DNA from: an archaeon
Lineage (GTDB): Archaea; Nanobdellota; Nanobdellia; Woesearchaeales; GW2011-AR4
Assembly: GCA_002688925.1 (NCBI GenBank)
Contig: NZEC01000018.1
Span: forward strand, 1 to 59,130
DNA: 59,130 bases
Direction: 5' to 3'
The notes below the pieces were generated by a model. That model made no database searches. It was not told the DNA's origin and worked only from the letters and a program-made list of their open reading frames with translations. The first letter of the stretch is position 1; each line of letters begins with the position of its first letter. The position numbers and the translations under genes were made by a program. Positions 20,210 through 24,509 of this stretch are shown one piece after another.

Positions 20210-20908
20210 ATGCAGAAAATAATAAAATTGGAAAAGAGCATCATTCCAAGCTGTGACGTATCTGATTTGGAAAAACTGAAGAGTTTAGTTAAGGAAACAT
20301 GTTCTGTTGGAGGCATTGGCGCATATAAAATCGGCCTTGAGCTTGCATTAAGATTTGGAATTTCAAGTATTGTTGATGCAATAAAAAAACATACAAATCT
20401 CCCAATAATCTATGACCATCAGAAAGCAGCCACTGACATTCCTGACTTAGGAGAGAAGTTCGCTAAAGCAGTTAAAGGCGTTGATGCAGTTATCCTATTC
20501 CCTGTAATGGGCCCTGAAACTGAAAAAGAATGGATTAAAGCATGCAAAAAAGAAAAATTGGGCATTATTGTTGGCGGAGAAATGACGCATAAGGCCTTTT
20601 TGAAAAGCGAAAACGGATTTATCAATGATACATCTCCTTTAAAAATTTATGAGATTGCAGCAAAGCATGGAATTAATGACTTTGTTGTTCCGGGAAACAA
20701 GCCTGAAAAAATAAAATATTACAAGTCATTCTTAGAAGCCCGCGGCCTAAAGCCGATATTCTACAGCCCTGGTTTAATTACTCAAGGCGGCAGCATAACT
20801 GAAAGCGCAAAAGCAGCAGAAAGGTGGCATGCTATTGTCGGAAGAGCATTATATAATGCCAAAGACATAAACAAAGCTGCAAAAGAAATGGTAAAGGCAC
20901 TTGATTAA
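20210..20908 (+). CDS. pyrF: Orotidine 5'-phosphate decarboxylase (OMPDC superfamily)
   Basis: The last step of UMP synthesis. A TIM-barrel protein of 232 aa. The active-site strand reads YDHQKAATDIPDLG (D69, K72, D76), a variant in which K and D are one residue further apart than in the usual DxKxxDI. The phosphate-binding end is SPGLITQGG and then HAIVGRALYNA, as in OMPDC. It complements the pyrBIDK operon elsewhere in the window. Another OMPDC-suprafamily activity cannot be excluded because of the spacing. Confidence 0.8.
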   Translation: MQKIIKLEKSIIPSCDVSDLEKLKSLVKETCSVGGIGAYKIGLELALRFGISSIVDAIKKHTNLPIIYDHQKAATDIPDLGEKFAKAVKGVDAVILFPVMGPETEKEWIKACKKEKLGIIVGGEMTHKAFLKSENGFINDTSPLKIYEIAAKHGINDFVVPGNKPEKIKYYKSFLEARGLKPIFYSPGLITQGGSITESAKAAERWHAIVGRALYNAKDINKAAKEMVKALD

Positions 20909-20987: not shown

Positions 20988-21515
20988 ATGAAAATAGCAG
21001 TCTGTGGCTCTGGTGCAATATCTGATAAAGAAATTGCCAAAAAAGCATTTGAAATTGGCAAGGAAATTGCAAAAAATAATGCTTTGTTGTTAACCGGAGC
21101 CTGCAACGGCTATCCTTATGAAGCAGTAAAAGGCGCTTTTTCTCTTAATGGAAATGTTTTTGGAATCAGTCCTGCAAAAGATGAAAAAGAGCATAAAGAG
21201 AAATACTCATTTTCAACAGAAAACTTCACAGAAATAGAATATACAGGATTAGGAATTCCAGGAAGAAACTTTGCCTTAATCAAGGAAGCAGATGCAGTAA
21301 TTATAATCTCCGGTCAGACAGGAAGCTTAAACGAATTTACTATTGCGTTCCATTATGGAAAAGTGATGGGAATTTTAAAAAATTCTGGTGGCATAACAGA
21401 TATCATAGAAAACATTGTAGAAGTATGCAACAAAAACGATGAAAAAGAAAATGTGGTTTATTCTTCAGATGGTAAAGAAATAGTAAAACTAGTATTAAAC
21501 AAATTAAATCAATAA
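20988..21515 (+). CDS. TIGR00725-like SLOG family protein
   Basis: 175 aa Rossmann-like LOG/SLOG protein. It starts MKIAVCGSGAISD, then LLTGACNGYPYEAVKGAF, GIPGRNFALIKEADAVI and ISGQTGSLNEFTIA, the last corresponding to GGxGTxxE with GGxG changed to SGQTGS. Family members bind nucleotides or nucleosides; the precise role is unknown. This is the second SLOG-type protein in the window. Confidence 0.75.
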   Translation: MKIAVCGSGAISDKEIAKKAFEIGKEIAKNNALLLTGACNGYPYEAVKGAFSLNGNVFGISPAKDEKEHKEKYSFSTENFTEIEYTGLGIPGRNFALIKEADAVIIISGQTGSLNEFTIAFHYGKVMGILKNSGGITDIIENIVEVCNKNDEKENVVYSSDGKEIVKLVLNKLNQ

Positions 21516-21572: not shown

Positions 21573-22781
21573 ATGTCAGACTGCAAATCTGTTTATGACC
21601 CAAAAGAAGACAGCACTCTATTAGAGCATTATGTTAGGCAATATGCTAAAGGCTCTGTCTTGGACATAGGAACAGGTTCTGGAATCCAGGCAATATCAGC
21701 AACACAAAGCAGCAAGGTAAACTCCGTTATAGCTATAGATGTTCAAAAACCAGTTATAGAGCATTGCAAAAAAAACATTAAGAATAAAAAAATAACATTC
21801 CTTGTCTCAGACCTATTCCATGAACTTAAAAAAAATAAAAATCTCAAAAATAAAAAATTCGACACCATAACATTCAATCCACCTTACCTTCCAAATGAGC
21901 TCAAAGTAAAAGACCTTACTCTAGAAGGAGGCAAAAAAGGATATGAAACGCTTGAGAAGTTCTTTAATGATGTTAATGATTTTTTAAAAACTGATGGGAT
22001 AACCCTAATTGTCTTTTCCTCTCTGACTAAAAAAGAAAAAGTTGACAAATTCATTTTTAATAACCTGCTTGAATTCAAGTTATTGGAAAAACAGCACTAT
22101 TTCTTTGAGGATTTGTATGTTTATTTGATTAAAAAATCTCAAATACTGAAAAAATTAGACAAACTCAACATAAAAAAAATAAAATATTTTGCAAAGGGAA
22201 AAAGAGGTGTTATTTTTACCGGAAATTACAAGAATAAAAAAGTCGCAATAAAAACAAAAAACCCAAATAGCAAAGCCATTGCAAGAGCTGAAAATGAAAT
22301 CAATTTTTTAAGAATATTAAATAAAAAAAACATCGGGCCAAAATTGCTTCTTGCAGATAAAGATTTCCTTGTCTATGAATTTGTTAAAGGAATTCCGATA
22401 TTGGATTTTTTTGAAAAAATAAGTACAGCTAAAAGTAATGGAAAAAACAAAAAAACAATATTAAAACTAATCAAAAACATTTTAGAGCAACTTTTTATAA
22501 TGGATAAATTAAAAATCAACAAAGAAGAGATGTCACACCCACAAAAGCACATTCTAATAGGCAAAAAAGTTGTCTTAATTGATTTTGAAAGAGCTCATTT
22601 TACAATAAAGCCCGGCAACGTAACCCAATTCTGTGATTTTTTAATGTCAAAAAAGTTATCAACATTACTAAAAACAAATAAAATAACAATCGACAAAAAA
22701 AATATAATTAAATTATCAAAAACATATAAAAAAAACATCAATAAAACTAATCTTAAAAAAATATTGGATGAAATTGAATAA
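21573..22781 (+). CDS. HemK/Mtq2-type methyltransferase fused to archaeal COG2112-type kinase
   Basis: 402 aa in two parts. Residues 1-190 are a SAM methyltransferase with VLDIGTGSGIQAI (about 29-41) and the glutamine/adenine-methylating motif NPPY at 102-105, closest to HemK2/Mtq2 release-factor methyltransferases. Residues 195-402 are a small protein-kinase-like domain: K in KKVAIKTKN, E in RAENEINFL, a catalytic-loop analogue HPQKHILI, and the metal motif LIDFERA in place of DFG. This matches the archaeal 'predicted Ser/Thr kinase' group near Bud32/RIO. The link is continuous with no stop. The two halves may act on translation termination or recycling. Confidence 0.8.
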   Translation: MSDCKSVYDPKEDSTLLEHYVRQYAKGSVLDIGTGSGIQAISATQSSKVNSVIAIDVQKPVIEHCKKNIKNKKITFLVSDLFHELKKNKNLKNKKFDTITFNPPYLPNELKVKDLTLEGGKKGYETLEKFFNDVNDFLKTDGITLIVFSSLTKKEKVDKFIFNNLLEFKLLEKQHYFFEDLYVYLIKKSQILKKLDKLNIKKIKYFAKGKRGVIFTGNYKNKKVAIKTKNPNSKAIARAENEINFLRILNKKNIGPKLLLADKDFLVYEFVKGIPILDFFEKISTAKSNGKNKKTILKLIKNILEQLFIMDKLKINKEEMSHPQKHILIGKKVVLIDFERAHFTIKPGNVTQFCDFLMSKKLSTLLKTNKITIDKKNIIKLSKTYKKNINKTNLKKILDEIE

Positions 22782-23211: not shown

Positions 23212-24141
23212 TCACTTCCTCTTCTTGCCTTTCTTCCTCTTCTTGATCTCTTTGTCCAGCTTTAGCTCATCTAAAAGCTCTTTATATCTGTTCCTGATAG
23301 TAACTTCAGTAACTCCTGCTACATCTGCAACTTCTCTTTGTGTTCTTTTTTCATTATGCAGTAATGCAGATACATACAAAGCAGCAGCAGCAATTCCAGT
23401 AGGCCCTCTTCCGGATGTAAGCTCTGCTTTTTGAGCCTGCTCAAGAATTTCAATTGCATTGCTCTGTGTTTCAGCACTTAACTTTAAAGAGGACGCAAAC
23501 CTTGCAATATAATCAGCAGGATTGCTTGGCAAAATTGTTATGCCTAGTTCTCTTGTAACAAACCTATATGTCCTTCCTATCTCCTTTTTCTCTATTCCGG
23601 AAACATCAGACAACTCATCAAGAGTCCTTGGAACGTCATGCCTTCTGCAGGCTGCATATAAAGCTCCTGCAACAACGCTTTCCATAGACCTGCCGCGAAC
23701 TAAACCACGTTGAACAGCTAAAGTATAAATCCTGGCACTCTCTTCTTCAACAGATTTTGGAAGCTTTAAGTATGAACTAACTCTCTTTAGCTCTGCTAAA
23801 GCAAGCTTAAGGTTCCTTTCTATTGCAGTGGATATTCTATACTGCCATTTCCTTAATCTAAAGAATTTATTCCTTTCTTTTCCACCAAGCTTGAATAAAT
23901 CAGCTTTCTGGCCAACCTCAGTCCCTAATCCATGGTCAAACTGAGTATAAGTCATTGGAGCTCCGGCCCTTCTCCTTCCCTCGCTCTGGTCACCGTCAAA
24001 CTCTCTCCATTCCTGCGTAAAATCAACCATCTTTTCTTCTATAACAAGACCGCAATCCCTGCATATAATCTCTCCTCTCTCCTTATTCCAATTAAGATTT
24101 ATACCGCCGCATTCAGGACATTTTTTAACCAATTCAGGCAT
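23212..24141 (-). CDS. tfb: Transcription initiation factor TFB
   Basis: Archaeal TFIIB homologue, 309 aa. The N-terminal zinc ribbon has C8, C11, C27 and C30. The B-reader/linker region is EWREFDGDQSEGRRRAGAP. Two cyclin repeats follow (about 110-205 and 210-300), with AALYAACRRHDVPRT and AAALYVSALLHNEKRTQREV. It recruits RNA polymerase to TATA-TBP. It ends in a lysine-rich tail. A single gene with a long upstream AT-rich gap. Confidence 0.97.
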   Translation of the reverse strand: MPELVKKCPECGGINLNWNKERGEIICRDCGLVIEEKMVDFTQEWREFDGDQSEGRRRAGAPMTYTQFDHGLGTEVGQKADLFKLGGKERNKFFRLRKWQYRISTAIERNLKLALAELKRVSSYLKLPKSVEEESARIYTLAVQRGLVRGRSMESVVAGALYAACRRHDVPRTLDELSDVSGIEKKEIGRTYRFVTRELGITILPSNPADYIARFASSLKLSAETQSNAIEILEQAQKAELTSGRGPTGIAAAALYVSALLHNEKRTQREVADVAGVTEVTIRNRYKELLDELKLDKEIKKRKKGKKRK

Positions 24142-24347: not shown

Positions 24348-24509
24348 ATGGCTAAAAACCCAATTCCAAAGGATTTATTCGATATTTTAGCATGTCCAGT
24401 CTGCAAAGCCAATTTGCGCTATACTAAAGACAAAAAAGGCCTTGTTTGCGTGAAATGCAACAAAAAATACCCCATAAAAGCAAAAGTGCCAATATTATTG
24501 CCCGAATAA
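24348..24509 (+). CDS. Trm112-like zinc-ribbon protein, 53 aa
   Basis: Short protein starting MAKNPIPKDLFDILACPVCK, with zinc ligands C16, C19, C34 and C37 and ending KVPILLPE. This is the Trm112/UPF0434 fold, in which 'DLLACPxCK' and 'PI...G.P.LL' are standard. In archaea Trm112 activates several methyltransferases, including Mtq2-type enzymes, so it could partner the methyltransferase-kinase fusion 1.6 kb upstream (inference). A TATA-like ATGTTTATAAATAG lies at about 24257-24270. Confidence 0.88.
   Translation: MAKNPIPKDLFDILACPVCKANLRYTKDKKGLVCVKCNKKYPIKAKVPILLPE

Follow-up and report, generated by a model that had tools for sequence, protein, structure and literature searches.

The window analyzed here, a stretch of 59,130 nucleotides from a Woesearchaeales-type DPANN genome, contains a gene in which a methyltransferase runs directly into a small kinase. 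This locus raises the question whether both domains truly form one protein, to which families they belong and whether they serve a common process. The first-pass annotation had described an uninterrupted frame joining an NPPY methyltransferase of the release-factor type to a Bud32/RIO-like kinase, had assumed a shared pathway, perhaps translation termination, and had pointed to a Trm112-like gene downstream.

The fused gene and its reality

The frame as such was confirmed. Positions 21573-22781 of the forward strand represent a single ATG-to-stop frame of 402 aa comprising the NPPY methyltransferase and the small kinase, whose IDFERA motif is located at residues 336-341. The gene and its neighbors are as follows:

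20210..20908, + strand: OMP decarboxylase/HUMPS-family gene, upstream (profile match)
20988..21515, + strand: SLOG-family protein, upstream (PF18306)
21573..22781, + strand: fused gene, predicted HemK2/Mtq2-type methyltransferase plus ArkI-type RNA kinase, 402 aa
22768..23091, + strand: OGT/ATL-type protein with PCHR (PF01035, 99.7 bits)
23212..24141, - strand: transcription factor B (TFB), convergent, as beside the fusion in many relatives
24348..24509, + strand: Trm112-like zinc protein, 53 aa (PF03966, 41.6 bits)

The OGT/ATL-type frame overlaps the fusion by 14 nt; read from its second ATG (22789), it starts 7 nt past the fusion stop.

The window genome is fragmented (20 contigs), which would fit two genes joined by a fault of assembly or sequencing. 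Against this, the same frame is present in the chromosome record CP010425.1 of Archaeon GW2011_AR15 (locus L060), in the single-contig genome G044 and, as one stop-free frame over both domains, in at least 125 of 199 genomes of the same order, a lower bound since the matches listed reach approximately E 7e-70 and weaker fusions are missed. Among the relatives, near full-length or full-length single-frame matches were found in 35 of 59 genomes (window genome counted), and five further ones showed a partial match spanning the junction. Separate genes in all relatives, with a sequencing error creating the fusion in this genome, is thus not what was found; an artefact was rejected and has a virtually negligible probability. 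The methyltransferase-kinase fusion is real and conserved.

The N-terminal methyltransferase half

For residue comparisons, 68 distinct fused proteins that were near-complete and free of X were kept, 65 of which form alignment A3 (L016, L017 and L022 were left out). Two features were located in the N-terminal half:

21573..22130, + strand: methyltransferase domain, residues 1-186 (TIGR00537 hemK_rel_arch, fold match to human N6AMT1)
21876..21887, + strand: NPPY motif, residues 102-105 (sequence and column counts)

The archaeal HemK2/MTQ2 profile TIGR00537 matches residues 7-183 with 107.7 bits against a cut-off of 87, and the fused methyltransferase is the sole match above this cut-off in the window genome, the next one listed reaching 28.8 bits. 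Human N6AMT1 represents the closest solved fold (Z 22.9; 6kmr_B with rmsd 2.4 over 183 residues), followed by E. cuniculi Mtq2 and bacterial PrmC/HemK as other near folds. The NPPY columns are occupied by N in 64, P in 63, P in 65 and Y in 65 of the 65 fused proteins. Furthermore, the acidic pair that reads GGQ and the SAM ligands of human N6AMT1 were taken from the excerpted text of the N6AMT1-Trm112 paper (PMC6796863). Based on these positions, the GGQ-reading pair E12/D13 (N6AMT1 E27/D28) is kept, the first residue being E in 63 proteins and D in the other two, the second being D in all 65. The SAM ligand positions D31 (D or E) and D56 (D) are likewise conserved in 65/65, whereas only 50/65 retain D at the position matching the SAM-adenine ligand D103.

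As judged from these residues, the METHYLTRANSFERASE half of the fused protein looks competent. Its HemK2/Mtq2-type, i.e. release-factor-type, identity, which the first-pass annotation had suggested and which profile and fold match now support, predicts methylation of the GGQ motif. The resemblance to HemK2/Mtq2/N6AMT1 covers the profile score, NPPY, the SAM ligands, the acidic pair and the fold (Z about 23); unlike these enzymes, the fused protein carries an additional kinase at its C-terminus, and Trm112 is usually undetected in genomes encoding it.

The window genome encodes an aRF1 (L165) as a 370-aa frame with intact GGQ. Since the fused gene holds the sole above-cut-off TIGR00537 match and a GGQ-containing aRF1 is present, aRF1 methylation, if it occurs in the host, most likely needs this gene. 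The aRF1 of the window genome is free of an intein-like insert. Inserts of this kind directly after GGQ, where HemK2/Mtq2 acts, occur in several relatives, with approximately 500 aa in L166 (G012:C4:85500-89000) and approximately 145 aa in L167 (G025:C51:13400-15600), and long aRF1 frames also occur in G006, G010, G013, G020, G027, G040 and G052.

The C-terminal kinase half

Sequence matches in the PDB from about residue 190 onwards are headed by TkArkI (7vnx) and Geoglobus acetivorans Ark1 (8yv4/8yv5). ArkI (COG2112) converts U47 of tRNA into 2'-phosphouridine, as described in the consulted part of Ohira et al. 2022 (PMC9095486); for Nitrososphaera ArkI, that study used an E. coli strain devoid of trmB and tapT. 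Alignment to TkArkI located the following features:

22140..22778, + strand: ArkI-type kinase domain, residues 190-402 (sequence and fold matches)
22194..22208, + strand: P-loop region K208-G212 (TkArkI K32, G33; alignment to TkArkI)
22251..22253, + strand: ATP lysine K227 (TkArkI K51; K in 65/65)
22515..22550, + strand: catalytic loop 315-326 with K317-E318-E319 and K325 (TkArkI HGQ 130-132, K137; alignment)
22581..22589, + strand: DFE metal loop D337-E339 (TkArkI D149; D and E in 65/65)
22617..22625, + strand: N349 and T351 (TkArkI N160, T162; alignment)
22725..22730, + strand: Y385-K386, RNA-binding YK(R) motif (TkArkI Y200, K201; alignment, motif from the excerpt of PMC9095486)

The kinase half was modelled alone for fold comparison, because fold matches of the whole model are dominated by methyltransferases. 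The resulting model (pLDDT 91.9) is closest to TkArkI (Z 20.9, rmsd 2.6, 197 residues) and Geoglobus Ark1 (Z 20.4 and 20.3), after which values drop to Z 15.8 for A. fulgidus Rio1 and Z 15.2 for human PRPK (Bud32). The ArkI matches thus lie about 5 Z units above those to Bud32/PRPK and RIO kinases (Z 14-16).

The Bud32/RIO-like assignment of the first-pass annotation was not upheld, as sequence, catalytic residues and fold point to ArkI. Bud32/PRPK and RIO1/RIO2 share the same broad small-kinase fold, but genuine genes for both sit elsewhere in the window genome. The Bud32 profile TIGR03724 matches other genes (C4, C18:78206) and leaves the fusion locus unmatched, so that a Bud32 identity was rejected. 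A RIO identity was rejected as well: the fused protein gave no PF01163 match at E<=1, and a RIO gene is located at C18:78128-78667.

According to the available sections of the ArkI paper (PMC9095486), alanine mutants of TkArkI link the mapped positions to activity, the effect of Y200A being mild. Equivalents of G33, K51, E65, D149, N160 and Y200 are conserved in 65/65 fused proteins, that of T162 in 63/65 (S in two), of K137 in 63/65 (R in two) and of K201 in 62/65; K32 corresponds to K in 42/65 and R in 13/65. The R95 position is replaced (Y in 54/65) and the R202 position is variable. In the same sections, alanine mutants of H130 and Q132 are reported to have lost most of their activity; these residues are K and E (K317, E319) in 65/65 fused proteins, the HGQ triplet being absent from all 65 and K-E-E standing in its place. 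In the alignment, Geoglobus Ark1 shows the same K-E-E-M stretch. This protein, an RNA kinase by its PDB entry titles alone, one entry being with ATP, also carries KEE, so that HGQ is seemingly not family-defining.

The replaced triplet also counts in favor of the reading that the kinase has a protein target, be it aRF1, the methyltransferase partner or one of the ribosomal proteins, and regulates termination instead of modifying tRNA. The kinase-like fold and the weak RIO scores of domain relatives (PF01163, 32 bits in L170) would agree with such a role. However, sequence and fold group the domain with ArkI, the N160/T162 and YK positions, which matter for tRNA phosphorylation by TkArkI in the excerpted text, are kept, and a kinase with the same KEE loop was deposited as RNA kinase. 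A protein target is hence considered unlikely. The C-terminal half is an ArkI-type RNA kinase, as deduced from sequence, catalytic residues and modelled fold, with a predicted activity on tRNA U47. It shares with ArkI/Ark1 the best sequence and fold matches, the ATP lysine, the glutamate, DFE and the N/T and YK positions. It differs from TkArkI in being part of a larger protein and in having KEE, as in Geoglobus Ark1, instead of HGQ. Moreover, hosts of the fusion originate from groundwater, marine and sediment samples, as deduced from record titles, and not mainly from hot sites as for ArkI.

Domain arrangement and predicted function

A structure model of the whole protein was built from 65 fused sequences and reached a mean pLDDT of 93.2 and a pTM of 0.87. 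The two domains meet in a short segment:

22131..22184, + strand: junction, residues 187-204, where the final methyltransferase strand closes and helix 190-197 leads over to the kinase (model)

Its length varies by 0-2 residues among the 68 fused proteins, a value that describes length variation and not an absolute linker, as the half-profiles were cut at one column.

Based on sequence and modelling, the fused protein is probably a bifunctional enzyme of translation upkeep, combining aRF1 GGQ methylation with tRNA U47 phosphorylation, both activities being predicted. The N-terminal domain would catalyze SAM-dependent N5-methylation of the GGQ glutamine in aRF1, and the C-terminal domain would catalyze ATP-dependent phosphorylation of the U47 2'-OH in class I tRNAs, with both active sites held in a single chain in a predicted fixed arrangement. 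The fusion may thereby couple release-factor modification with tRNA modification, both substrates being similarly shaped A-site ligands. The shared pathway assumed at first reading is retained insofar as a link to translation is indicated; since the kinase is of the tRNA U47 type, the common theme would be translation generally, i.e., tRNA and release factor, and not termination alone.

Of the 18 tRNAs predicted in the window genome, 11 have U47, which is a weak check because U47 is common in tRNA genes. In Thermococcus, the U47 2'-phosphate stabilizes the tRNA core, as stated in the consulted part of PMC9095486. The eraser KptA was not detected in the 59 relatives by profile PF01885, an absence by profile only, as this profile matched 3 of 14 controls.

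A methyltransferase and a kinase in one chain are also known from WbdD of E. coli O9a (4azw/4azt), which has the same order of domains, N-terminal methyltransferase and C-terminal kinase. According to the excerpt of PMC3482155, WbdD phosphorylates an O-antigen sugar and then methylates that phosphate. By analogy, the kinase might add the U47 2'-phosphate and the methyltransferase might then methylate this phosphate or a nearby base of the same tRNA. If true, the tRNA of a lineage with no KptA eraser detected would bear a novel, permanent modification. Such a relay is very improbable, given the HemK2 active site. WbdD differs in its families and in its substrate, an O-antigen sugar, and the large rmsd of 8.4 over 349 aligned residues (Z 17.4) suggests a different two-domain arrangement.

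Relationship to Trm112

Human N6AMT1 is active as a complex with Trm112 (excerpted text of PMC6796863), and the Trm112-like gene noted at first reading at a distance of 1.6 kb is indeed present, beginning 1.57 kb past the fusion stop. It is separated from the fusion by the conserved TFB gene. A search for Trm112 covered 183 genomes of the order that had passed a completeness filter of 90%, the window genome being listed alongside in spite of its 84.9%. A Trm112 match at E<=1e-6 was obtained for 38 of these 183 genomes. Among the 101 fused genomes at least 90% complete, Trm112 was detected in 20 and not detected at E<=1e-6 in 81, which weakens Trm112 as an obligate partner. Archaeal groups devoid of Trm112 were already noted in a 2017 review (available part of PMC5372719). 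A Trm112 hit is present in 9 of 36 named loci, and the proximity of Trm112 looks mostly incidental.

The Trm112-facing positions, transferred from the excerpted N6AMT1 paper, differ from those of human N6AMT1, the sole reference, in being more polar, with a mean hydropathy of 1.0 vs 2.97 (one of 10 interface positions, mostly gaps, was omitted). Grouping the 28 of 65 rows of A3 with known genome status by Trm112 presence revealed no clear difference (1.17, sd 0.61, n = 19 vs 0.88, sd 0.41, n = 9). Close relatives of the window feature a hydrophobic residue at the central interface position, and a Trm112 gene lies nearby in several of them; binding and use of Trm112 may thus persist in the clade to which the window belongs.

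The frequent lack of a detected Trm112 and the polar interface would also suit a methyltransferase re-targeted to RNA, in which case both domains would act on tRNA and aRF1 would no longer be a substrate; NPPY-type enzymes do include RNA methyltransferases such as TrmM (7wm6), to which a fold match was obtained. This is quite improbable, as the domain is the sole above-cut-off HemK2-type protein of the window genome, the acidic pair reading the GGQ peptide is conserved, eRF1/RF1 methyltransferases are the closest folds and the interface polarity lacks a clear dependence on Trm112 presence. Release-factor methylation remains the favored prediction for this half.

Distribution and origin of the fusion

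The phylum sample comprised 371 genomes, namely the 199 of the same order and 172 others. Among the matches listed, five further genomes of the order contain a spanning frame with a stop, and no spanning match was found in the 172 genomes of other orders. Re-checking 80 of the latter, for the most part those whose best matches scored highest, again gave no spanning match (0/80). Among the matches listed for these 80, both genes occur in 46, the methyltransferase alone in 26 and the kinase alone in 8; the genes are always separate and, where they share a contig, no closer than 33 kb, the seven same-contig pairs being spaced by 34-214 kb.

Among the named loci, 66 of 80 are fused, a share biased by a scan query derived from fused proteins, 5 have a methyltransferase nearby and 9 do not (L064 and L109 start at a contig edge). 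The records carrying the locus are mostly named Candidatus Woesearchaeota. The fusion was also observed in records titled Methanosarcinales archaeon (L055) and Aminicenantes bacterium (L102), which are probably mislabelled or contaminated, since the kinase tree places L055 in a tight group with Woesearchaeota copies and L102 among order members.

Within the order, unfused members with adjacent genes, methyltransferase first and often overlapping, were identified (L068, L078, L093, L097, L169, L170), so the fusion is not required. In L174, a stretch of 4.2 kb containing other genes separates the two. As the genes are unlinked in other orders and adjacent or fused in this one, they appear to have met in this order and then merged; neighboring same-strand genes, methyltransferase then kinase, would have become one frame. 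The surroundings are partly shared: among the 36 named loci that span 10 kb or more, TFB-like hits were obtained in 18, OGT in 16, OMPD in 12 and SLOG in 11. Moreover, in L170:3646-4542 and L177:5369-6463, an ArkI-type kinase is joined to the OGT/MGMT DNA-binding domain (PF01035) and not to the methyltransferase, and this kinase-OGT fusion in two genomes supports an old operon.

In the kinase tree, 41 of 92 inner branches are open and fused and split states are interleaved, implying at least 12 changes, 3 of them forced by starred branches. Later splits and repeated fusions are indistinguishable on this tree, so that the fusion may have arisen once or more than once.

These data bear on whether the two activities are coupled. 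Compaction of adjacent housekeeping genes in a small genome would leave both activities in place and dispute their shared pathway only. The persistence of unfused adjacent pairs, the joining of the kinase to OGT instead in L170 and L177 and the interleaved states on a poorly resolved tree would be expected in this case. In contrast, the near-constant junction length, the confidently predicted domain arrangement and the fact that genes unlinked in other orders became linked and fused in this one argue for a coupled function. Taken by itself, compaction is given a little less than an even chance; coupling and compaction without coupling are about as likely as each other.

Further observations were made in relatives. 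G055 encodes a divergent asparagine-rich fused copy (L176:3092-4636) and a second, stand-alone HemK2-type methyltransferase (L176:17786-18442). In G036, G051 and G057 (87-95% complete), aRF1 is present and both the fusion and an above-cut-off HemK2 are absent, which suggests that joint loss of both activities is possible. L182 (G042:C36:1-20000) on a 73-kb contig of a relative harbors a giant minus-strand frame, reported as 17,312 aa; the 20-kb stretch given is free of N and shows an open frame over 6,666 codons.

Significance

ArkI was presented in 2022 as a stand-alone enzyme responsible for the first stable internal phosphorylation known for RNA, chiefly in thermophilic archaea (consulted part of PMC9095486). 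In that paper, the word 'fusion' is absent and 'fused' appears once, for a protein tag, and titles and abstract openings of the open-access literature yielded no description of a methyltransferase-ArkI architecture. Both families are known; their combination is, as far as known, undescribed.

In a large order of uncultured archaea, an ArkI-type domain joined to the sole release-factor methyltransferase is the common state. This raises the questions of how HemK2 copes without Trm112, whether the U47 phosphate is also widespread in non-thermophiles and where an eraser is lacking, and whether methylation of the release factor and the status of tRNA are linked. Provided that both halves are functional, a single protein would serve both ligands of the ribosomal A site, tRNA and its protein mimic.
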